Shown here piece after piece: positions 7,428 through 18,210 of a DNA stretch of 64,000 nt. The translations under genes and the position numbers were made by a program. The stretch's first letter is position 1; the number at the start of each line of letters is the position of its first letter. The notes below the pieces were generated by a model. That model ran no database searches, was not told the DNA's origin, and saw only the letters and a program-made list of their open reading frames with translations. The stretch is from Phascolarctobacterium faecium DSM 14760 (GTDB taxonomy: Bacteria > Bacillota > Negativicutes > Acidaminococcales > Acidaminococcaceae). The stretch is from positions 248,001 through 312,000 of the forward strand of contig NZ_QLTS01000001.1 of the NCBI RefSeq assembly GCF_003269275.1, read 5' to 3'.

Positions 7428-8618
7428 TTATAAAATAGAAGCTTCATTTACTTCTTCAATATCATTTTTTTCAGCATAGCCTGTCAGGACCAAAGTCAAA
7501 GCACCGTCACCAGTTACATTGCAGGCAGTACCAAAGCTGTCCTGCAGTGCAAAAATCGTCAACATCAAAGCCGTACCAGTAGCATCAAAACCCAGTACAC
7601 TGATGATAAGGCCTAAAGAAGCCATAACTGTACCACCTGGAACACCGGGGGCACCAATAGCAAAAATACCCAGCAACAGACAGAATAAAATCATCGTACC
7701 TAATTCCGGCAAAGCACCATATAAAATCTGCGAAACAGTCATAACAAAAAATACTTCAGTCAAAACACTGCCACATAAATGAATACTGGCAAACAGTGGA
7801 ATGCCAAAATTTACCAAGTCTTTGCGCAGCACTTTTGATTTACGTGCACATTCCAACGCCACTGCTAAAGTAGCCGCCGATGACATTGTACCTACGGCAG
7901 TAATATAAGCCGGCCAGTAATGCTTCAGCACTTCCATTGGATTAGCGCCGGCATAAAGACCTGCCAAACCGTACAACAATGCCAGCCAGATATAATGTCC
8001 CACCATTACTATCAGCACTACAATCAGGAACACAGGCAGCTGTTTGGTAATCGTACCTTCGTACGACAATGCGCAAAAAGTGCAGGCGATAAAAATCGGC
8101 AGCAGAGGAATAACAATATTAGTAACGATAGCCAGAACAATTTTTTGAAATTCTTCCAAAAATTTAGTAATCACAGCAGCCTTAGTCCAGGCAGCTGCCA
8201 CACCAATCAAAACAGAAAAGACCAAGGCGCTCATTACACTCATGATCGGGTCGATCTTTAGATCAAACAACAGCTTTGGCAGTTCTTTTAAACCATCTAC
8301 AGAAGAAACAATATTCATATGGGGAATAATACCATACCCTGAAAACATTGCAAAAAATGCTGCTCCAACCGAAGAAACATAAGCTAAAGTAATAGCAACA
8401 CGCAGCATTGTCGACGCATGCTGGCCCAAACGCGTGATAGACGGGGCAATGAACCCGATAATAATCAGCGGTACACAGAAAATAATCAATGAACCAAGTA
8501 AATTTTTGATGGTTAATATAACCTGCATCAAAGCTTCATTGGCATATAAGCCTACCAGAATACCTGCAATAACACCCAGTAAAAGTCGGGCAGGCAAACT
8601 TCCCAGTATGTTTTTCAT
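7428..8618 (-). CDS. DAACS-family dicarboxylate/amino acid:cation symporter
   Basis: A 396-residue integral membrane protein of the GltP/DctA family, with about eight hydrophobic segments and two re-entrant hairpin regions. The APGVPGGTVMASLG hairpin is recognisable. In the last helix the NVTGD motif is kept, but the arginine that binds the substrate side-chain carboxylate in GltPh (DMGRT) is glycine here (DSFGT). The NMDGT motif reads HLCGS. Plain aspartate or glutamate transport is therefore unlikely and the substrate is unknown. The ATG at 8618 has AAAGAG eight bases upstream, preferable to a GTG three codons earlier. Confidence 0.85.
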   Translation of the reverse strand: MKNILGSLPARLLLGVIAGILVGLYANEALMQVILTIKNLLGSLIIFCVPLIIIGFIAPSITRLGQHASTMLRVAITLAYVSSVGAAFFAMFSGYGIIPHMNIVSSVDGLKELPKLLFDLKIDPIMSVMSALVFSVLIGVAAAWTKAAVITKFLEEFQKIVLAIVTNIVIPLLPIFIACTFCALSYEGTITKQLPVFLIVVLIVMVGHYIWLALLYGLAGLYAGANPMEVLKHYWPAYITAVGTMSSAATLAVALECARKSKVLRKDLVNFGIPLFASIHLCGSVLTEVFFVMTVSQILYGALPELGTMILFCLLLGIFAIGAPGVPGGTVMASLGLIISVLGFDATGTALMLTIFALQDSFGTACNVTGDGALTLVLTGYAEKNDIEEVNEASIL

Positions 8619-8767
8619 TAGCGTCACTCTTTTCTTGGATAAAATATTTTACTATATACTAAAATAGCATATACTAATCAATTCCTCAACTGTTTTTCAC
8701 TTTTTCTCTCAAAATATTATTATTTTCTTAAATAAAAGTACTGAAAATAGTATTTTAGACTTTTTTA

Positions 8768-8976: not shown

Positions 8977-9825
8977 TTAATATAAATTATTTTTGCTAAT
9001 ATAAAAATCTAAATCTGCCAGCCGCTGTTTAGAATCAGTTCCAATTTTCTGACCAATCAAGATTGCTAACGACTCTGCAACACATAATGGAACTACATAA
9101 GAATTTGTAAAACCAACTCCGTCTATTTTTACCGTTAACAAATAATCAGCATATGGCACTAATGGTGACGTTACTCTGTCTGTAATGAGAATGATTTTAC
9201 TACCACGCTTTTTAGCCAGCTCTAAAATAGAATAATTAATCTCAGAGTAGCGCGGGAACGAAAACATCACCAAACAATCTTCTTCATTAAGATCAATCAA
9301 TTTTTCTATAACACTGCTTTCTGCCATATTGCACAAAATCAAATGCGGCACAAAAAACACTGCTTTACGTGTAAAATAATCAGCACAACAAGATGTTCCT
9401 CTAAAACCAATAATATATTTATTCCGACTTTTTATAATACACTCAGCGATACTATTCACTAATTTGTCATCTAAATTAAGCATCGTCGAAGATAAATTAT
9501 CAATAGCCTTATAAAAAACATCGTTTACTACGTTATCACTATTTATTTTATCTTTGGTATTAGTAAATTTCTGGCTTGGCGATAAATTCAAATTATAATG
9601 TTCAAGCATCCGTTCTTTCATAGTATTTTTAAAATCAGCAAACCCAGCAAATCCAAGTAATCTAATAAACCTAATAATAGAAGTATCACTTACACCTAAC
9701 TTTAAAGATATATCAGTCACTGTACTAAGACCAATGTTATTAATATTATCAAGAATATAATCTGCTATAACTTTTTCTGTTTTAGTTAAATTCATAGACT
9801 GGATCTTACTAATCAAATTATCCAT
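8977..9825 (-). CDS. RpiR-family transcriptional regulator
   Basis: A 282-residue regulator with an N-terminal helix-turn-helix (about 1-75; LKLGVSDTSIIRFIRLLGF is the recognition region) and a C-terminal SIS domain (about 120-265) that binds phosphosugars or related ligands in this family. It is transcribed in the same direction as the aldolase-transporter-aminotransferase operon just upstream, but behind that operon's terminator. It is the obvious candidate regulator of that operon. Whether it represses or activates cannot be seen. Confidence 0.88.
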   Translation of the reverse strand: MDNLISKIQSMNLTKTEKVIADYILDNINNIGLSTVTDISLKLGVSDTSIIRFIRLLGFAGFADFKNTMKERMLEHYNLNLSPSQKFTNTKDKINSDNVVNDVFYKAIDNLSSTMLNLDDKLVNSIAECIIKSRNKYIIGFRGTSCCADYFTRKAVFFVPHLILCNMAESSVIEKLIDLNEEDCLVMFSFPRYSEINYSILELAKKRGSKIILITDRVTSPLVPYADYLLTVKIDGVGFTNSYVVPLCVAESLAILIGQKIGTDSKQRLADLDFYISKNNLY

Positions 9826-9880
9826 AACAACATTCCTTTAAATATTAAGTATTATGTTAATATTATACACCATAAAATAA

Positions 9881-9912
9881 AAAGAAGCAGGGATAAATTT
9901 CCCTGCTTCTTT
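9881..9912. terminator. Hairpin terminator after aminotransferase gene
   Basis: Arms AAAGAAGCAGGG and CCCTGCTTCTTT with an eight-base loop lie six bases after the aminotransferase stop. It separates the operon from the RpiR gene. Confidence 0.85.
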
Positions 9913-9917
9913 TTATT

Positions 9918-11105
9918 TTATTCAAGTTCTCTTACAAAAGACTGTATTCTATCCATTGCTTCCTTTAAATTCTCCATAGAATTAGAATAAGACAATCTTA
10001 CTTTGCCCTTAATATTAAATGCTTCCCCTGGAACCAATGCCACCAGAACAGCTTCTAATAGAATATTAGCAAAATCAACGGCATCTTTTATTTCACGGCC
10101 ACGATATTTTTTGCCAAAATAACAACTGAAATCCGGCAATAGATAAAAAGCTCCTCTAGGTTTCGCACAGCTTACCCCCGGCATTTCGGCCAAACGCTGC
10201 AATAAATAAATTCTTCGTTTATCGAACTCTGCAACCATTACTTCCAAATCATGCTGCGGTCCACTCAAAGCAGCAACAGCAGCCTTCTGAGATATAGCAC
10301 TGGTAGCTGAAGTTGTTTGACTTTGAATTTTCTTTATTGCATCTATAATAGTTTTATTGGCAGCTACATATCCAATACGCCAGCCAGTCATTGCATAAGC
10401 CTTAGAAAAGCCATTTACAGTTAAAGTCCTGTTCCAAACATCTTTAGAAATAGAAGCTATTGAAAAGTGCTTTGCATCGTCATAAATAAGCTTTTCATAA
10501 ATTTCATCTGTAATAATATAAAAATCATATTTACAAGCTAAATCAGCTAATTTACGCAAAGTACCTTCGCTATAAACAGCTCCAGTTGGATTATTAGGAG
10601 TACAAATAACAATAGCTTTTGTCTTCGTAGTTACAGCCTTCTCTAAAGCCTCAATATCCAAATCAAAAGTTTCTGCTTCTACATCTACAAAAACTGGTTT
10701 CGCTCCTGCAAACTTAATCATCTCAGTATAACTAACCCAGCAAGGAACTGGCAAAAGCACTTCATCTCCAGGATCTACTAAAGCCATGATCGAATTAAAA
10801 ATTGCCTGCTTAGCTCCTACAGTCGCGCAAATTTCATCTGTGGTATATTCTAAATTATTATCTTCATGTAATTTTTTAGAAATCAAACGGCGTAATTCTA
10901 TAATACCGTTACCAGCAGTATACTTACTGAAGTTATCAACTATTGCCTTGATAGCTCCGCATTTAATATAATCAGGAGTCCCAAAATCAGGTTCACCCAC
11001 ATTTAAAGAAATAATATCTTTTCCCTCTGCTCTCAACTCAGCTACTTTCGCAATCAATGCAGAAGTTGGCGAACCTGAAAAAGTATTCATTCTTTCTGCT
11101 AACAT
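9918..11105 (-). CDS. Class I/II pyridoxal-phosphate aminotransferase (aspartate aminotransferase-like)
   Basis: A 395-residue fold-type I aminotransferase. Typical features are the N-terminal NVGEPDFGTPDYI, the CTPNNPTGAVYS segment with the PLP-contacting asparagine, ITDEIYEKLIYDD, and the PLP-binding lysine in NGFSKAYAMTGWRIGY (about 232-247). The substrate-carboxylate arginine is in VRLSYSNS near the C-terminus. It would interconvert an amino acid and its 2-oxo acid. Lying between a DAACS transporter and an RraA-like aldolase, it probably deaminates the imported amino acid rather than serving aspartate biosynthesis. The ATG has a perfect AGGAGG. Confidence 0.9.
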   Translation of the reverse strand: MLAERMNTFSGSPTSALIAKVAELRAEGKDIISLNVGEPDFGTPDYIKCGAIKAIVDNFSKYTAGNGIIELRRLISKKLHEDNNLEYTTDEICATVGAKQAIFNSIMALVDPGDEVLLPVPCWVSYTEMIKFAGAKPVFVDVEAETFDLDIEALEKAVTTKTKAIVICTPNNPTGAVYSEGTLRKLADLACKYDFYIITDEIYEKLIYDDAKHFSIASISKDVWNRTLTVNGFSKAYAMTGWRIGYVAANKTIIDAIKKIQSQTTSATSAISQKAAVAALSGPQHDLEVMVAEFDKRRIYLLQRLAEMPGVSCAKPRGAFYLLPDFSCYFGKKYRGREIKDAVDFANILLEAVLVALVPGEAFNIKGKVRLSYSNSMENLKEAMDRIQSFVRELE

Positions 11106-11121
11106 TATAATTCCTCCTATC

Positions 11122-12357
11122 CTAAACTAAAGTTTTATTAAAATCTTCACCAGTCCAAATATTTTCATTTTTGGCAACCAGCATCGTTCCTAAAACATCA
11201 CCCGATACATTTACTGTAGTATGTGACATATCAATAAGTCTGTACATTCCAGCAATAGGCCCCATTAAATCCATTGGCAAACCTAAAAGATTTAAAAAAA
11301 TCGCACCTGTTACAATACCACCACCGGGGATACCTGGTGCCGCGATAGACATAATAGTCGAAATAATAATAACCATTAAAATCTGATCAATAGTGAGCTG
11401 CAAACCATAGATCTCAGCTACAAAAAACGCCAGTATCGTTTTATATAAAGCGGCTCCAGTCAAATTTATCGTGGCTCCCAAAGGTATAGAAAATGAAGCA
11501 ATAGACATCGGTACCTTTAACCTTTCTGTAGTAACATTTAGAGTTATAGGTATCGTACCTGCGCTGGAATTAGTAGCAATAGTATTTACCCAGATCGGTA
11601 TCATTGATTTACACATTTCCAGATAATTTACTTTAGTATATAACCAGACGATACCACTAAAGAAAAACCAAATCAAAAGACAGCCAACCCAATCTGTAAA
11701 AACAAACTTAGCCAGAACCCCAAAAAGCTTAGGTCCAAATACAGCCGTAGTATTCGCCATCAGTGCTAATACACCAATAGGAGAATATAACATAACTATA
11801 TCCAGCATTTTATAAATAATACTTGCACATTGATCAAAAATTTTAGTAACCCCAGCTACCTTCTCACCTAAAGACACCAGTGCCACACCTACAAGAACAG
11901 TAAAAAAAATCATTTGCATAATCTGATTTTTAGCCATACTGTCAACAATATTAACTGGTACCATATCAAACAAAAAATTTACAAATGATGGGGTTTTCAC
12001 TTTTGAAGTATCAAATGCCTGCATATTATCAAGTGTAAATCCCACACCTGGATGAGTCATATTAACCATAACAATACCAACAATACAAGCACTAACTGTC
12101 ATAAGGAAATAGACAATGACTACTTTACTGCCAATTCTTTTCAACCGCTGCACATCACCAATAGCAGCAATGCCGCTTGTAACGCTAAAAAAGATAACCG
12201 GAACAATTAACATTTTAATCATATTCATAAATAAATCTCCGGCAGGTTTTACCCAAATAGAAAAATCATGGAAAAACAGTCCGGCTATAATACCTATGAT
12301 AAAACAAACGCCTACTCTATGCGGCAAATATTTTTTATTTAACAAAAACGTACTCAT
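11122..12357 (-). CDS. DAACS-family amino acid/dicarboxylate symporter with altered substrate site
   Basis: A membrane symporter of 411 residues of the glutamate transporter family: conserved serine-rich hairpin 1 (TNSSAGTIPIT), NLTGAALY in place of NMDGT(A)LY, the hairpin 2 APGIPGGG motif, and the last-helix motif IDMSHTTVNVSGD. By alignment to GltPh, the amino-group aspartate (394), the asparagine (401) and the sodium aspartate (405) are kept. The side-chain-carboxylate arginine (397) is histidine. An amino acid with a modified gamma or side-chain carboxylate region is a reasonable guess. The ATG at 12357 follows GAGGGG. It lies 16 bases before the aminotransferase gene. Confidence 0.87.
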   Translation of the reverse strand: MSTFLLNKKYLPHRVGVCFIIGIIAGLFFHDFSIWVKPAGDLFMNMIKMLIVPVIFFSVTSGIAAIGDVQRLKRIGSKVVIVYFLMTVSACIVGIVMVNMTHPGVGFTLDNMQAFDTSKVKTPSFVNFLFDMVPVNIVDSMAKNQIMQMIFFTVLVGVALVSLGEKVAGVTKIFDQCASIIYKMLDIVMLYSPIGVLALMANTTAVFGPKLFGVLAKFVFTDWVGCLLIWFFFSGIVWLYTKVNYLEMCKSMIPIWVNTIATNSSAGTIPITLNVTTERLKVPMSIASFSIPLGATINLTGAALYKTILAFFVAEIYGLQLTIDQILMVIIISTIMSIAAPGIPGGGIVTGAIFLNLLGLPMDLMGPIAGMYRLIDMSHTTVNVSGDVLGTMLVAKNENIWTGEDFNKTLV

Positions 12358-12390
12358 ACTATCCCCTCGTTTCCCAAACAACTTGCTTTA

Positions 12391-13086
12391 TTAATAGTAA
12401 TCGTCAATTATTTCAATCTTTTTTGTCTCGATAGCTTTAACTACCCACTCACGCTTAGCAGTTCCATTCCCAGCGGCAACCACTTTAGCTTCATCAGTTT
12501 CTTGCAGTTTTTGCGCTGCTGCAAGTACCGCAGAAGCATCCTTCAATGGAATAATTATTACACCATCATCATCCATAACAACTATATCTCCTGGGTTTAC
12601 GCTAATACCACCACAAGAAATTGGTACATTTATTTCTCCCGGTCCTTCTTTATAAGGACCACCTGGTGTAGAACCTGTCGCATAAATAGGTAATGGTATT
12701 TCCTTTGCGGATTTTACATCCCTTATCGGGCCATCTAATACTAAACCATTAAGTTTTTTATAAGCAGCATATGTAAACATAATCTCTCCCATCAACGACC
12801 TGTTATCTACACCGCCCTCATTAGAAACAACAATCACATCACCTTCTCTAGCCATATCCAAAGCTGCGTGTATAAGAAGGTTATCTCCCCCACGAGATTT
12901 GACAGTAAGGGCAATTCCTGCCCATACCGTTCCATGCGGACTGGAAAACAACTTAATTCTTGGATGCATAGCACAAGAACGTCCCATCGTATCAGCAATA
13001 TTAGCTGTAGGTATCTTGGCAAACGCTTTAACTAATTCCAATCCACTGTTGTCCTTTTTTAAATAAATTCTTCCGCCAACTGTCAT
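12391..13086 (-). CDS. RraA-like 4-hydroxy-4-methyl-2-oxoglutarate aldolase family protein
   Basis: A 231-residue member of the RraA/HMG aldolase family, which splits 4-hydroxy-4-methyl-2-oxoglutarate or 4-carboxy-4-hydroxy-2-oxoadipate into pyruvate plus pyruvate or oxaloacetate, and also decarboxylates oxaloacetate. The family core is present: NIADTMGR near the N-terminus, GDVIVVSNEGG, GEIMFTYAAYKKLNGLVLDG, and IRDV, which supplies the Arg-Asp metal/substrate pair (about 118-123). It is the first gene of a tight operon with the symporter and aminotransferase. True RraA (RNase E inhibitor) is unlikely in this context. Confidence 0.82.
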   Translation of the reverse strand: MTVGGRIYLKKDNSGLELVKAFAKIPTANIADTMGRSCAMHPRIKLFSSPHGTVWAGIALTVKSRGGDNLLIHAALDMAREGDVIVVSNEGGVDNRSLMGEIMFTYAAYKKLNGLVLDGPIRDVKSAKEIPLPIYATGSTPGGPYKEGPGEINVPISCGGISVNPGDIVVMDDDGVIIIPLKDASAVLAAAQKLQETDEAKVVAAGNGTAKREWVVKAIETKKIEIIDDYY

Positions 13087-13218
13087 TTGCTACACCTCAC
13101 TTGATATTATATTAGTCACTTTCTTGTTTATTTAACAACATTTTAACTTCAAAAAGAATATTATTCAACATATTTCTGTAAACATTTAATAATATTTTAT
13201 TTTTCTACCTAAAAAGTA

Positions 13219-13235
13219 AAATTTGTAACAAATTT
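13219..13235. promoter_or_regulatory. Palindrome upstream of aldolase operon, candidate operator
   Basis: AAATTTGT-A-ACAAATTT is a perfect 17-base palindrome with a single central base, 133 bases upstream of the aldolase start. The rest of 13087-13365 is AT-rich with no gene seen. RpiR proteins bind dyad sites, so it is a candidate operator, but AT-rich palindromes also arise by chance. Confidence 0.35.
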
Positions 13236-13415: not shown

Positions 13416-13492
<77 letters not shown>

Positions 13493-13498
13493 AAAAAT

Positions 13499-13572
13499 TG
13501 GAGCGGGCGATGGGAATCGAACCCACAACATCAGCTTGGAAGGCTGAGGTTTTACCACTAAACTACACCCGC
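13499..13572 (-). tRNA. tRNA-Gly (TCC anticodon)
   Basis: Minus-strand cloverleaf with acceptor GCGGGTG/CGCCCGC, anticodon stem TCAGC/GCTGA with loop CTTCCAA, and T loop GGTTCGATTCC. CCA is encoded. It is six bases from tRNA-Arg. Confidence 0.95.
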
Positions 13573-13599
13573 AATTTACTAAGCAATGCTCTATGTATT

Positions 13600-13676
13600 T
13601 GGTCGGAGCGGCAGGATTCGAACCTGCGACCCCCTGCTCCCAAGGCAGGTGCTCTACCAAGCTGAGCCACGCCCCG
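13600..13676 (-). tRNA. tRNA-Pro (TGG anticodon)
   Basis: Minus-strand cloverleaf with acceptor CGGGGCG/CGCTCCG, anticodon stem CCTGC/GCAGG with loop CTTGGGA, and T loop GGTTCGAATCC. CCA is encoded. It is first in the cluster. Confidence 0.96.
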
Positions 13677-13819: not shown

Positions 13820-15199
13820 TTAAGCTTCTTCAGCCACTTCTTCAGCAATAGAGTCCTTTTCTTTTTGTTTTGCCAGATGTGCGGTATAACGTTTTGTTTC
13901 GGCTACGATAACTCCAGTAAGGCCCAGAAGCGCGATCAAATTAGGAATAGCCATCAAACCGTTAACTATATCTGCTAAAACCCAGATTGCTTCCAGTTTC
14001 AAGAATGCACCGCAGGCAATCAGGCAAATAAAAATAATACGGTACGGCAAAATTGCTTTAACACCCAGCAAATATTCGATGCAGCGTTCACCATAGTAAT
14101 TCCAGCCTAAGATCGTAGTAAAGGCAAACAGTACCAGGCCAACCATCAATAGATATTTGCCCCACACCGGGAAGCCCATCGTAAAGGCAGCCTGAGTCAA
14201 AGCTGCACCATTCAAATCACCAGTCCAGACATTAGTAACAACCAGCGTCAACCCAGTCAGTGTACAAATAATGATCGTATCAATAAAAGTACCGGTCATA
14301 GAAATCAGCCCCTGTTCGGCGGGCCATTTTGTTTTAGCAGCAGCAGCAACGATCGGGGCACTGCCAAGACCGGATTCGTTAGAGAAAACACCACGGGCAA
14401 TACCATTACGCATTGCTATCATAACAGTTGCGCCCAAAAAGCCGCCAGCGGCAGCCGTAGGACTAAAAGCATTACTAAGCACTGTGGAAATAGCTGCAGG
14501 CACCTGATCTGCAAATATAAGTAAAATACCTACGGTAGTAACAACATATAACAAGGCCATAAAAGGAACGATTTTACCTGCTACGCTGGCGATAGATTTA
14601 AGACCGCCAATAGTAACGACAGCAACCAGCACTGTCAGCGCAATCGCAGTATAAATAACAGGAATGCCAACAGACAACTGCGTGATCTCAACTATAGCGT
14701 TGACCTGAGCAAAAGTACCGATACCAAAATAAGCACACAACACACCGGACACGGCAAAGAAAACAGCCAGCGGTTTATAAGATTTACCTAAACCGTTTTC
14801 AATATAATACATAGGTCCGCCGGCAATATTGCCATTAGCGTCAACTGTACGGTATTTTACCGCCAAAAGACCTTCGGCATATTTGGTAGCCATACCAAAA
14901 AATGCCGCCAGCCACATCCAGAACAAGGCACCGGGACCACCTGCTTTGATAGCAGTAGCAACACCGACTATATTACCTGTACCGACAGTAGCTGCCAAAG
15001 CTGTACACAATGCTTTAAAACTGTTGACGTCGCCGTCACCATCATTTTTAGCCGAAAAAATCAATTTTAAAGCCATTGGCAGTTTAAGCACCTGCAATAA
15101 ATTCAAACGCAGGGTCAACCAGATACCGGTACCAACCAATAATACCAATAACGGCGGTCCCCACACAAAACTGTCGATCTCATTCAAAAGCTCCAACAT
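13820..15199 (-). CDS. AGCS-family sodium:alanine/glycine symporter
   Basis: A 459-residue membrane protein with about eleven hydrophobic segments and the family signatures ALAATVGTGNIVGVATAI (about 69-86), FWMWLAAFFGMATKYAEG and RGVFSNESGLGSAPI. AGCS proteins take up alanine or glycine with sodium. The 5' leader holds a tandem glycine riboswitch and an intrinsic terminator, so glycine is the likely substrate and expression should rise when glycine is abundant. It is probably used for uptake into glycine or one-carbon catabolism. The ATG has GAGGGAG nearby. Confidence 0.93.
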   Translation of the reverse strand: MLELLNEIDSFVWGPPLLVLLVGTGIWLTLRLNLLQVLKLPMALKLIFSAKNDGDGDVNSFKALCTALAATVGTGNIVGVATAIKAGGPGALFWMWLAAFFGMATKYAEGLLAVKYRTVDANGNIAGGPMYYIENGLGKSYKPLAVFFAVSGVLCAYFGIGTFAQVNAIVEITQLSVGIPVIYTAIALTVLVAVVTIGGLKSIASVAGKIVPFMALLYVVTTVGILLIFADQVPAAISTVLSNAFSPTAAAGGFLGATVMIAMRNGIARGVFSNESGLGSAPIVAAAAKTKWPAEQGLISMTGTFIDTIIICTLTGLTLVVTNVWTGDLNGAALTQAAFTMGFPVWGKYLLMVGLVLFAFTTILGWNYYGERCIEYLLGVKAILPYRIIFICLIACGAFLKLEAIWVLADIVNGLMAIPNLIALLGLTGVIVAETKRYTAHLAKQKEKDSIAEEVAEEA

Positions 15200-15275: not shown

Positions 15276-15320
15276 AAAACGATATAAGTACTCCCCTGCC
15301 TAAAAGGCAGCGGAACTACT

Positions 15321-15487
15321 GCTATTGCTCTGTCCATTGGCCTGAGAGATAAGAACATCAACGATATTCGTGCACCTTCGGCGCCCATTCAAGGGACTCT
15401 CCAGAGTTGTGTCCGCATACGGTTCCGCCTGATTTCCAGGCACCTGAGAGTTTAGCTCCTTCGGTAGACGCATCGTCTTCTCCCATA
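15321..15487 (-). ncRNA. Tandem glycine riboswitch (gcvT element)
   Basis: Two consecutive aptamers can be read on the minus strand. The first, about 15487-15400, contains GGGAGAAGACGATGCG, TACCGAAGGAGC and CTCTCAGGTGCC, and ends GGACACAACTCTGGAGAG. The second, about 15412-15321, has GCGCCGAAGGTGCACG, CTCTCAGGCCAATGGACAG and the closing AGAG. These are the conserved elements of the cooperative glycine riboswitch. With the following terminator it should control the AGCS symporter. Confidence 0.93.
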
Positions 15488-16010: not shown

Positions 16011-17093
16011 ATGAAAAATCCTAACGGTTACGGCGGCATCAGCAAACTGCCCGGCAACCGCCGCAAACCCTATCGTGTACGACTGACAGCAGGCTGGCAG
16101 TATCAAACAGATGGCAAACCACTGCAAAAATATCACACACTTGGTTACTATACCAGCAGACGCGCTGCCCTAATCGCACTTGCCGACTACAACAAACGCC
16201 CTTACGACTTAAATCTGCAGCATATCACTTTAGGCGAGCTTTACAACCAGTGGTATGACAAACATACCGTCCGCCTTTCACGTTCCTCACGCTGCAGTTT
16301 TACGGCAGCCTGGAAAAAATGTACTGATATTGCCAACGAACCAATCAAAAAAGTAAAAAAAGCACAAATGCAGGCAGTCCTGGATAATAATCATCACCTT
16401 TCCCCCAGTGTGCAAACGCGCTTAAAAACTATTTTCAACGGTATTTTTCGTCTCGCACTTGAAAATGATCTTATCAACGTAGACTATTCGCGTTATCTGG
16501 AAAAGAACGCTACTGCCAAACAAACATCCCGAAGTATTTTTACTCACAGTGAAATCAAATGTTTATGGAAAAATCTTGAACTGACACTGCCGCTTGCTGA
16601 CGGCAGCCGCCATCATTACAATGACGTCAGGCTGGTCGATACGGTACTGATCATGCTTTACAGCGGTATACGCATCGGCGAGCTGCTGGAAATACAAACG
16701 GCACATATCGACCTCAAAAAGCAGATTATTGACCTGCACGGTACTAAAACAAAAGCAGCACACCGTATCCTGCCACTGCATAAAGATATCGTGCCGCTTG
16801 TCGCCGCCCGTATGCACGGTAAATATCTGATCGAAACAGAAAATGGACAGCCAATAATCTACGATACCTACAAAAAACGTTTTTTTGACCTGTTAATGTC
16901 AACATTAAAAATGCAGCATAAGCCCCATGACTGCCGCCATACCTTTATCAGCGGTATGGACTCCTGCGGGATCAGCGCCGGCAGCGTTATTTTAAAACGC
17001 ATAGTTGGTCACGCCAATGCCGATGTCACCGAAAGCTACACTCACAAAAATATCCGGCAGCTTTTAACTGCAATCAACAAACTAAAATATTGA
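16011..17093 (+). CDS. Tyrosine recombinase / phage-type integrase
   Basis: A 360-residue integrase. The N-terminal AP2-like arm-binding domain (about 1-65) is followed by a SAM-like core-binding domain (about 72-165) and the catalytic domain (about 175-355). The catalytic residues are visible: Arg in LYSGIRIGELL (about 222), His-x-x-Arg in HDCRHTF (about 307-310), His in VGHANAD (about 330) and Tyr in ESYTHKN (about 339). The start has AAAGGAGG. It is immediately followed by pilin genes and a phage replication pair. It may be the integrase of a decayed mobile element, or the enzyme acting on local repeats. Confidence 0.92.
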   Translation: MKNPNGYGGISKLPGNRRKPYRVRLTAGWQYQTDGKPLQKYHTLGYYTSRRAALIALADYNKRPYDLNLQHITLGELYNQWYDKHTVRLSRSSRCSFTAAWKKCTDIANEPIKKVKKAQMQAVLDNNHHLSPSVQTRLKTIFNGIFRLALENDLINVDYSRYLEKNATAKQTSRSIFTHSEIKCLWKNLELTLPLADGSRHHYNDVRLVDTVLIMLYSGIRIGELLEIQTAHIDLKKQIIDLHGTKTKAAHRILPLHKDIVPLVAARMHGKYLIETENGQPIIYDTYKKRFFDLLMSTLKMQHKPHDCRHTFISGMDSCGISAGSVILKRIVGHANADVTESYTHKNIRQLLTAINKLKY

Positions 17094-17094
17094 T

Positions 17095-17116
17095 TTGTGT
17101 CTTACCAGAGTCTTAC
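17095..17116 (+). repeat. Direct repeats TTGTGTCTTAC and GTCTTAC, right of integrase gene
   Basis: The second copy of the 11-base repeat begins at the integrase stop codon, followed within five bases by a further GTCTTAC. See the copy at 15950. A small perfect palindrome, GCGTTTA-A-TAAACGC, lies at about 17149-17163. Confidence 0.4.
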
Positions 17117-17202
17117 AAAACGTTATAAATTTAATAAATAACCCCTGCGTTTAATAAACGCTCAGACTGCTGATACTAACTTAATGGAAATTATTAATCC
17201 TC

Positions 17203-17685
17203 TTGAATTTTACTAAAAACAGAAAAGGTTTCACTTTGGTGGAATTGGTAGTAGTAATCGCCATTATCGGTATCCTTGCCGGCATTGCTGTACCGCGCTT
17301 TTTGGATGCTACAGCATCTGCCCGTGGCTCTAAAATCATAGCAGACATGCGCACTATTCAGGCCGCAGAAATGATTTATTATGCTAAAAATGCTAAATAT
17401 CCAGCAGCGCAAAATGATTTAAATTCTTTGGTGCAAGGTAGTTGGCCTGTTCCTCCTACCGGAAAATTTATTATTGCTCAGGTTCTTAAATCAAAGTCAA
17501 CATCTCCTACTGAAGGTACTGTATCAGACACAGGCGCATATCTTTATACTCCTGATACTGCTCAAGGAGGAACAGTAACTTTAACAAATGCAACTATCAG
17601 TGCTGGCGGTGTAAGCGGTGATTTAACTTTAAATAAGCTTTTAGGTGGTACCGAAACTACAACTACTCCAGAAACTGGCAATTAA
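17203..17685 (+). CDS. Type IV pilin-like protein, weak start (variant copy)
   Basis: A 160-residue class III-signal prepilin: short basic leader, cleavage motif KGFTLVELVVVIAIIGILAG, N-terminal hydrophobic helix and a variable, threonine- and glycine-rich C-terminus. The only usable start is a TTG at 17203 without a clear ribosome-binding site, and the conserved pilin DNA stops at that point. From codon 8 to about codon 90 it is very close to the pilin at 20936-21415, while the C-terminal third differs. It could be a poorly expressed minor pilin or a silent donor cassette. It is the first gene after the integrase. Confidence 0.75.
   Translation: MNFTKNRKGFTLVELVVVIAIIGILAGIAVPRFLDATASARGSKIIADMRTIQAAEMIYYAKNAKYPAAQNDLNSLVQGSWPVPPTGKFIIAQVLKSKSTSPTEGTVSDTGAYLYTPDTAQGGTVTLTNATISAGGVSGDLTLNKLLGGTETTTTPETGN
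17223..17282 (+). repeat. Pilin N-terminal 60-bp repeat, plus-strand copy
   Basis: This stretch matches the reverse complement of 21333-21392 with a single mismatch. A 49-bp block, 17210-17258, is identical to the reverse complement of 20640-20688. The copies are in inverted orientation about 4.1 and 3.4 kb apart. Confidence 0.85.
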
Positions 17686-17695
17686 TTTATAAATA

Positions 17696-17733
17696 AATTT
17701 AAAAGAGTCAGCTAATGCTGGCTCTTTTAAATT
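17696..17733. terminator. Hairpin between two pilin genes
   Basis: Long imperfect arms AATTTAAAAGAGTCAGC and GCTGGCTCTTTTAAATT around a four-base loop, ten bases after the first pilin and 16 before the next. Confidence 0.8.
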
Positions 17734-17748
17734 ACGTTGGAGGTAATC

Positions 17749-18210
17749 ATGTTTAAAAATAATAAAGGTTTTACTTTAGTCGAATTAGTCGTAGTTATTG
17801 CAATAATCGGTATTTTAGCGGGTATCGCAATTCCTATGTATACTGATGCTACAGCAACTGCAAGAGGCGCACGCATAGTTGCCGATATGGCTACTATTCA
17901 AGAAGCATACACCGCCTATCTGGTCAAAAATGGTGGAGCACAGAAAGTAACAGGATTGCCTACCAGTGAAATCTATGATGATATCCTTCCAATGTTAGTC
18001 GAGCAAGGTTATCTAGATTTTATTCCAATTCCTCCGATCGGAAATGCTATCTTTGTTAATGCAGACGAATATTATCGTGAATTACCAGTTCCTTCTGGAG
18101 CTTATTATACATTTATTAACCATTCTGATATATCTACCTCTGATGTTTTAGTTGCTATAGAATTAGGTTGGGGTCCACAGCCTATTAACAGATTTACAAA
18201 CAAATATTAA
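17749..18210 (+). CDS. Type IV pilin-like protein
   Basis: A 153-residue prepilin starting MFKNNKGFTLVELVVVIAII with a perfect GGAGG five bases before the ATG at 17749; a start four codons earlier lies across the ribosome-binding site and is rejected. The N-terminal helix is conserved (ending AIPMYTDATATARGARIVADM), and the globular part differs from the other copies (ends ELGWGPQPINRF). PilD should process it. It follows a terminator, so transcription must come from read-through or a promoter inside the 16-base gap, which is hardly possible. Confidence 0.85.
   Translation: MFKNNKGFTLVELVVVIAIIGILAGIAIPMYTDATATARGARIVADMATIQEAYTAYLVKNGGAQKVTGLPTSEIYDDILPMLVEQGYLDFIPIPPIGNAIFVNADEYYRELPVPSGAYYTFINHSDISTSDVLVAIELGWGPQPINRFTNKY

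Follow-up and report, generated by a model that had tools for sequence, protein, structure and literature searches.

An RraA, aminotransferase and symporter operon of Phascolarctobacterium faecium as a candidate cassette for the degradation of gamma-hydroxylated amino acids

A stretch of 64,000 nucleotides from Phascolarctobacterium faecium DSM 14760 (GCF_003269275.1; contig NZ_QLTS01000001.1, positions 248,001 to 312,000), hereafter the window, carries at positions 9881-13235 an operon coding for an RraA-fold aldolase, a symporter of the SDF family and an aminotransferase. The operon is real and conserved, and we think it somewhat probable that it serves the catabolism of a single kind of alpha-amino acid, one hydroxylated on the gamma carbon. 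Judging from the sequences, the most likely scheme is amino acid uptake followed by transamination and aldol cleavage. The original prediction had tied the three genes and a neighboring RpiR regulator to the breakdown of a gamma-hydroxylated or branched glutamate analogue by uptake, transamination and aldol cleavage to pyruvate. The linkage was confirmed, the three genes lying on the minus strand within 9881-13235 with gaps of 9 and 16 bases. The proposed sequence of reactions is supported by the RraA fold with nearly all of its active-site residues, and by the conservation and repeated assembly of the gene set. The features of the operon and its surroundings are as follows.

12391..13086, minus strand: RraA-fold class II pyruvate aldolase, 231 aa (PF03737, 151 bits; 3NOJ, Z 26.3)
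11122..12357, minus strand: SDF/DAACS symporter (PF00375, 365 bits, cut-off 27.9)
9918..11105, minus strand: type I-beta aspartate-aminotransferase-like enzyme, 395 aa (PF00155, 260 bits)
9872..9921, minus strand: hairpin of 22 pairs, probable operon terminator (-30.7 kcal/mol, z -8.1, equaled by 0 of 200 shuffles)
8977..9825, minus strand: RpiR-family regulator (HTH_6 and SIS domains; PF01418, PF01380), predicted repressor of the operon
13168-13140, minus strand: promoter-like site TTGAAT-17-TAAAAT, upstream of rraA
13139-13124, minus strand: candidate RpiR operator GTTGTTAAATAAACAA, found by pattern, directly after TAAAAT

The AlphaFold model of the RraA protein (pLDDT 82) has its best structural match in the 4-hydroxy-4-methyl-2-oxoglutarate/4-carboxy-4-hydroxy-2-oxoadipate (HMG/CHA) aldolase of Pseudomonas putida (3NOJ, of the LigK/PcmE group), with a Z score of 26.3 and a root-mean-square deviation of 3.4 over 220 aligned residues, the next match reaching 22.6. 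The two proteins share the fold, the Arg-Asp pair, the acid of the metal site and the Asn, His and Lys of the pocket. R122-D123, N69, H73, E101, and K146 of the window protein correspond to R123-D124, N71, H75, D102, and K147 of 3NOJ. In the numbering of 3NOJ, R40, N71, H75, G101, R123, D124, G144, and K147 are identical in the window protein, while D102 is changed to Glu, E199 to Asp, T145 to Pro and R195 to Leu. The R123-D124 pair is present in all 10 aligned RraAs of such operons. The D102 position, the first of the D-X20-R-D motif (E101-X20-R122-D123 in the window), is occupied by Glu in 8 of them, Asp in 1 and Ala in 1, and three RraAs of the Salinicola type have Tyr in place of H75. R123 is described as stabilizing the enolate, D124 and E199 as binding the metal, and N71, H75, and K147 as lining docked phosphate sites (PMC5065237). 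The protein scored below the NCBIfam equivalog cut-offs of TIGR02798 (123.5 of 304.5 bits) and NF006731 (130.5 of 179 bits), and it is therefore not filed as a CHA aldolase. In addition, the HMG/CHA aldolase is the partner of a ring-cleavage pathway, whereas an aminotransferase is the partner here. On a tree of 38 RraA rows, 10 of which carry the operon label, the label changes 5 times, and all 5 changes are forced by starred branches (shuffled mean 9.0, none of 500 shuffles as low), so the aldolase entered or left operons of this kind on several occasions.

The symporter retains the HP1 serines of GltPh, a member of the same SDF (DAACS) family. It also keeps D394, T398, and N401, and its cargo is thus probably an amino acid. 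Compared with GltPh it carries the changes R397H, T314A, D390Y, D312T, Q318K, T92M, and M311L; the histidine at R397 that had been noticed earlier is correct by alignment. The residues Arg-397, Thr-314, and Asp-390 of acidic (Glu/Asp) SDF transporters are accordingly His, Ala, and Tyr in the window symporter, which reached 215.7 of the 638 bits required by the GltP equivalog, and the sodium-coupled marks NMD (D312) and T92 are replaced by NLT and Met. The same changes characterize its clade. In the 14 aligned members, A314 and Y390 are invariant and D312 is absent throughout; position 397 is His in 13 and Asn in 1, position 92 is Met in 13 and Leu in 1, position 311 is mostly Leu, and position 318 is Lys in 12 and Leu in both Salinicola proteins. 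In contrast, the 70 alignable relatives outside the clade (31-36% identity) all have T314, R397, and D312, and 69 of them have D390. These residue counts cover 14 of the 15 clade loci (G441 left out) and 70 of the 71 non-clade loci, and the clade counts leave out the G414 locus. His397 was also found in three more distant relatives that lack the partner genes (L068, L069, L070). R397 is described as the residue that binds the side-chain carboxylate and D394 as the one that binds the amino group, the two determining the choice between acidic and neutral amino acids and between amino acids and dicarboxylates; a hydrophobic residue at T92 together with M311L is given among the marks of proton-coupled members (PMC12668577). 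The changes at R397, D390, and T314 argue against an ordinary acidic substrate. The side chain of the cargo appears to be read in an unusual way, and the ion coupling probably differs from the usual three sodium ions. The window also codes for a second, very divergent SDF-family transporter (7428-8627, minus strand) with no NCBIfam match, whose transmembrane segment 8 (QDSFGTACNVTGD) likewise has no equivalent of R397.

The aminotransferase is nearest to the I-beta aspartate aminotransferases, scoring 426 bits with asp_aminotase_Arch, below the equivalog cut-off of 550. K99, presumably the lysine that binds the distal carboxylate as in the aspartate aminotransferase (AspAT) of Thermus, is kept in all 8 aligned aminotransferases, and the SPT motif in 6 of them. 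In place of the Tyr of PxPYW, 7 of the 8 have Cys; the Tyr remains in Salinicola, whose operon aminotransferase belongs to a different lineage (280-285 bits, vs at least 460 bits in the others). A second, more distant copy (289 bits) is present in the genome of the window, so the enzyme of the operon looks dedicated.

The association of the three genes is widespread. A symporter search in 380 genomes of the class found 4 orthologues at 73-77% identity, 1 at 52% and 3 at 44-45%, followed by sequences at 42% or less. A scan of named genomes with two peptide patterns added, among the matches listed, Lutispora (62%), Hungatella (49%), two Salinicola (46-47%) and a rumen contig (74%). The clade comprises at least 15 loci. 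Of the 15 examined, 10 have the RraA and aminotransferase genes beside the symporter gene (the window, G020, G042 (C19), G302, G303, G288, Hungatella L076, Salinicola L077 and L079, and G441). The other 5 carry a class V pyridoxal phosphate (PLP) enzyme gene (G057, G035, G011, L074 and Lutispora L075). A search for co-occurrence had been proposed as a check, and the set of three genes proved to recur beyond chance: its 10 loci extend to other orders and to Lachnospiraceae and Halomonadaceae, with varying gene orders. In a scan of 80 loci, one or the other module (RraA or class V above 60 bits) was found in 9 of 9 clade loci and in 0 of 71 others among the matches listed (Fisher p 4e-12, uncorrected for relatedness). 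The 80 loci include short contigs, and the gene calls in the compared loci come from a simple open reading frame (ORF) picker that is wrong in some high-GC loci. The sister transporters L066 and L067 (38-42% identity) also stand with a class V gene, L067 additionally with an amidohydrolase gene. Two of the bins are likely misnamed, as the names Acholeplasmataceae (L071, the same as G020) and Prevotellaceae (L074) misfit their gene content, and the former is also at odds with the kinship of G020 to the family of the window.

G057, G035, G011, and G051 are class V genomes of the family of the window. The RraA profile at E 1e-5 had no match in these four genomes, each 98-100% complete, or in that of L074 (completeness unknown), and the aminotransferase profile at 1e-80 found no orthologue in the same four. 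Lutispora has one divergent RraA copy elsewhere (195 bits), and its aminotransferase copies elsewhere are more distant (best 481 bits). The class V proteins have TIGR01976 as their best library model, under its cut-off, and the cysteine of the desulfurase catalytic-cysteine loop is absent in 7 of 7. In a comparison of the class V profile with solved structures, the best two were SufS (5vpr, 92.5 bits) and Fgm3 (9x4u, 85 bits, over the full length). Fgm3, from the fusaoctaxin cluster, is described as acting on 4(R)-hydroxy-L-arginine, in which it cuts the bond joining C-beta to C-gamma and gives L-alanine and a second product (PMC10967133), a reaction described as a retro-aldol (PMC10367076). 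Besides the full-length match and the missing desulfurase cysteine, the class V proteins have C-terminal SKR and RVS..H stretches that resemble those of Fgm3 in the alignment. Nevertheless, Fgm3 is distant and its proposed base Tyr (Y225) cannot be placed with certainty in the class V proteins, where it may be Phe; the surroundings of the class V genes also look catabolic rather than biosynthetic. In G346, the genes on either side of a more distant class V relative code for an alanine dehydrogenase (TIGR00518, 513 bits against a cut-off of 392) and for a D-2-hydroxyacid dehydrogenase, as expected if the class V products are alanine and an oxo acid.

Class V genes were also observed in L205, L207, and L213. 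In L205 (3231-9129) the gene stands with those for alanine dehydrogenase, D-2-hydroxyacid dehydrogenase and an MFS transporter of the aromatic-acid type, and with one for a 321-aa protein without a Pfam or NCBIfam match. In L207 (2240-8407) and L213 (944-4500) it is accompanied by an SDF gene with DIxHTTANVSG (2 copies in L207), RidA and a threonine-dehydratase-like gene, a cassette possibly indicating a hydroxy- or enamine-forming amino acid.

Taken together, these features suggest the following pathway. The SDF symporter with its rewired pocket would import a gamma-hydroxy amino acid, and the I-beta aminotransferase would transfer the amino group of this compound to a 2-oxo acid, leaving a 4-hydroxy-2-oxo acid. 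As its fold and residues indicate, the metal-dependent RraA enzyme would then split the C3-C4 bond to release pyruvate and an aldehyde or oxo acid. The second product would be glyoxylate from 4-hydroxyglutamate and another pyruvate from 4-hydroxy-4-methylglutamate. In the relatives, a similar importer and regulator would serve the class V PLP enzyme, a predicted lyase of the same bond that would yield alanine and the same second product in one step. Because this alternative enzyme resembles a gamma-hydroxy amino acid lyase, it raises the odds of a gamma hydroxyl on the substrate. The "gamma-hydroxylated" part of the original prediction is thus favored independently by the Fgm3-like partner, while "glutamate analogue" and "branched" are possibilities. 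The side chain of the substrate may be acidic, as in 4-hydroxyglutamate and 4-hydroxy-4-methylglutamate, or else neutral or basic; plain aspartate is another possible substrate. K318 in 12 of 14 clade members and K99 of the aminotransferase point towards an acid, and so does the gene for a true sodium/glutamate symporter (PF03616, 350 bits; L077 4761-5942) at the head of the Salinicola operon, before rraA. More broadly, we tentatively propose a widespread undescribed bacterial route for gamma-hydroxy amino acids, in which one rewired SDF clade and regulator would feed two unrelated C-beta/C-gamma cuts, by an aminotransferase with a class II aldolase to pyruvate or by a PLP retro-aldol lyase to alanine, the carboxylate Arg and the sodium site having been traded for a pocket lysine.

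Several observations weigh against a gamma-hydroxy amino acid pathway. The active-site residues do not name the substrate because they are common to the RraA family: three of 4 aligned homologues outside such operons have the full set, and one lacks the His and the Lys. RraAs at 55-60% identity in other genomes of the order adjoin genes for hydroxyacid dehydrogenases and for citrate- or glutamate-type transporters, contexts that fit a general RraA role in which a 2-oxo acid is made and then split. By sequence, cysteine desulfurases are no more distant from the class V family than Fgm3 is. Its structural model (pLDDT 73) matches desulfurases, and Fgm3 was not among the best 50 matches and may be outside that structure set. 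The partner genes are also not distributed cleanly, since L074 starts with the 3' fragment of an aminotransferase gene, directly followed by its symporter and class V genes, G042 carries both modules with separate symporters, and G020 has a class V relative in another context besides its RraA module, as does G302. L074, G042, and G020 thereby rule out a strict alternation of the two modules. Finally, aspartate metabolism via oxaloacetate also accounts for many of the genes present.

A neutral or basic gamma-hydroxy amino acid, such as homoserine, 4-hydroxynorvaline, or 4-hydroxyarginine, would give pyruvate together with formaldehyde, acetaldehyde, or a guanidino aldehyde. Such a substrate would represent the non-acid version of the favored reading, within which its probability is counted, and we consider it unlikely. 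The loss of the carboxylate-reading Arg and Thr is in line with it, R397 being described as setting acidic vs neutral specificity (PMC12668577), and so is hydroxyarginine as the substrate described for Fgm3 (PMC10967133). The aminotransferase also resembles the hydroxyarginine-using GntC of guanitoxin (308 bits, cut-off 415). However, the pocket K318 and K99 mentioned above, K146 and H73 of RraA, and the sodium/glutamate symporter gene of Salinicola favor an acid.

It is rather improbable that the substrate is plain aspartate, which would be imported by the symporter, converted to oxaloacetate by the aminotransferase and decarboxylated to pyruvate by RraA, the class V enzyme being an aspartate beta-decarboxylase giving alanine. 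In work on RraA from 2014, aldolases of this fold reportedly decarboxylate oxaloacetate. The family names of the profile matches and the closeness of the aminotransferase to aspartate aminotransferases agree with this, and no aspartase above cut-off was found in the genome of the window. However, R397, T314, and D390 of the side-chain site are changed in every one of the 14 aligned clade members, and two matches over cut-off to beta subunits of Na+-pumping decarboxylases suggest that the genome may have another outlet for oxaloacetate. An oxo-acid co-product is suggested by the 2-hydroxyacid dehydrogenase genes next to class V relatives. Least credible of all is a window RraA that acts as an RNase E regulator and not as an enzyme, or three neighbors without a common pathway: the family name and the fold common to E. 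coli RraA (Z 19.4) speak for the regulator, which we reject on account of the kept catalytic residues and which is disfavored by the best structural score going to an aldolase, and the repetition of the gene set in distant lineages with differing gene orders speaks against mere neighbors.

Such chemistry has a precedent in mammals and is not new. In mammals, 4-hydroxyproline is described as being degraded via AspAT and 4-hydroxy-2-oxoglutarate aldolase (HOGA), with transamination to 4-hydroxy-2-oxoglutarate and aldol cleavage to pyruvate and glyoxylate, as proposed here (PMC3188589). The operon instead has a class II RraA-fold aldolase, a dedicated importer and a regulator. HOGA belongs to a different aldolase family from RraA. 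In the open-licence PMC literature we found no description of a bacterial operon of RraA, aminotransferase and symporter, or of one for hydroxy- or methylglutamate, which may be published elsewhere. The pathway would give a concrete predicted function to groups loosely named "RraA family," "dicarboxylate/amino acid:cation symporter," and "cysteine desulfurase-like protein." If it is true, some Acidaminococcaceae, Lachnospiraceae, and Salinicola consume gamma-hydroxy amino acids, possibly from hydroxyproline-rich or plant material, and the transporter clade is a natural experiment in the change of substrate and ion coupling of SDF proteins.

With regard to expression, the hairpin after the aminotransferase gene makes the RpiR gene a separate co-directional unit just outside 9881-13235. 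The start of the symporter gene in the ORF list is TTG 12381; ATG 12357 is better, being preceded by the Shine-Dalgarno-like GAGGGGAT. RpiR would repress the promoter through the GTTGTTA...ACAA site. The simplest reading of GTTGTTAAATAAACAA is a repressor site covering the transcription start, although the pattern alone is too common, being expected 0.21 times in the window and reached in 17 of 100 shuffles. The extended pattern has 1 match in the 2.3 Mb genome. In L060 and L061, TATAAT is followed directly by GTTGTTAATACAAC and GTTGTTAGTACAAC, respectively, before the symporter gene, a layout as in the window. RpiR homologues stand beside both modules, scoring 315-329 bits with RraA (G020, G042) and 364-373 bits with class V (G057, G035), and the Salinicola loci have instead a LysR-like gene, judged from its N-terminus.

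Upstream of the operon, the window contains 3 tRNAs (13416-13676) and an AgcS sodium:alanine-type symporter gene (13820-15199), which is preceded by a glycine riboswitch aptamer (RF00504, 52 bits; 15320-15414, minus strand). At 16011-18210 on the plus strand, an integrase-like ORF (360 aa, by eye) precedes a tandem pair of ORFs whose pilin-type N-termini are nearly identical (GFTLVELVVVIAIIGILAG).

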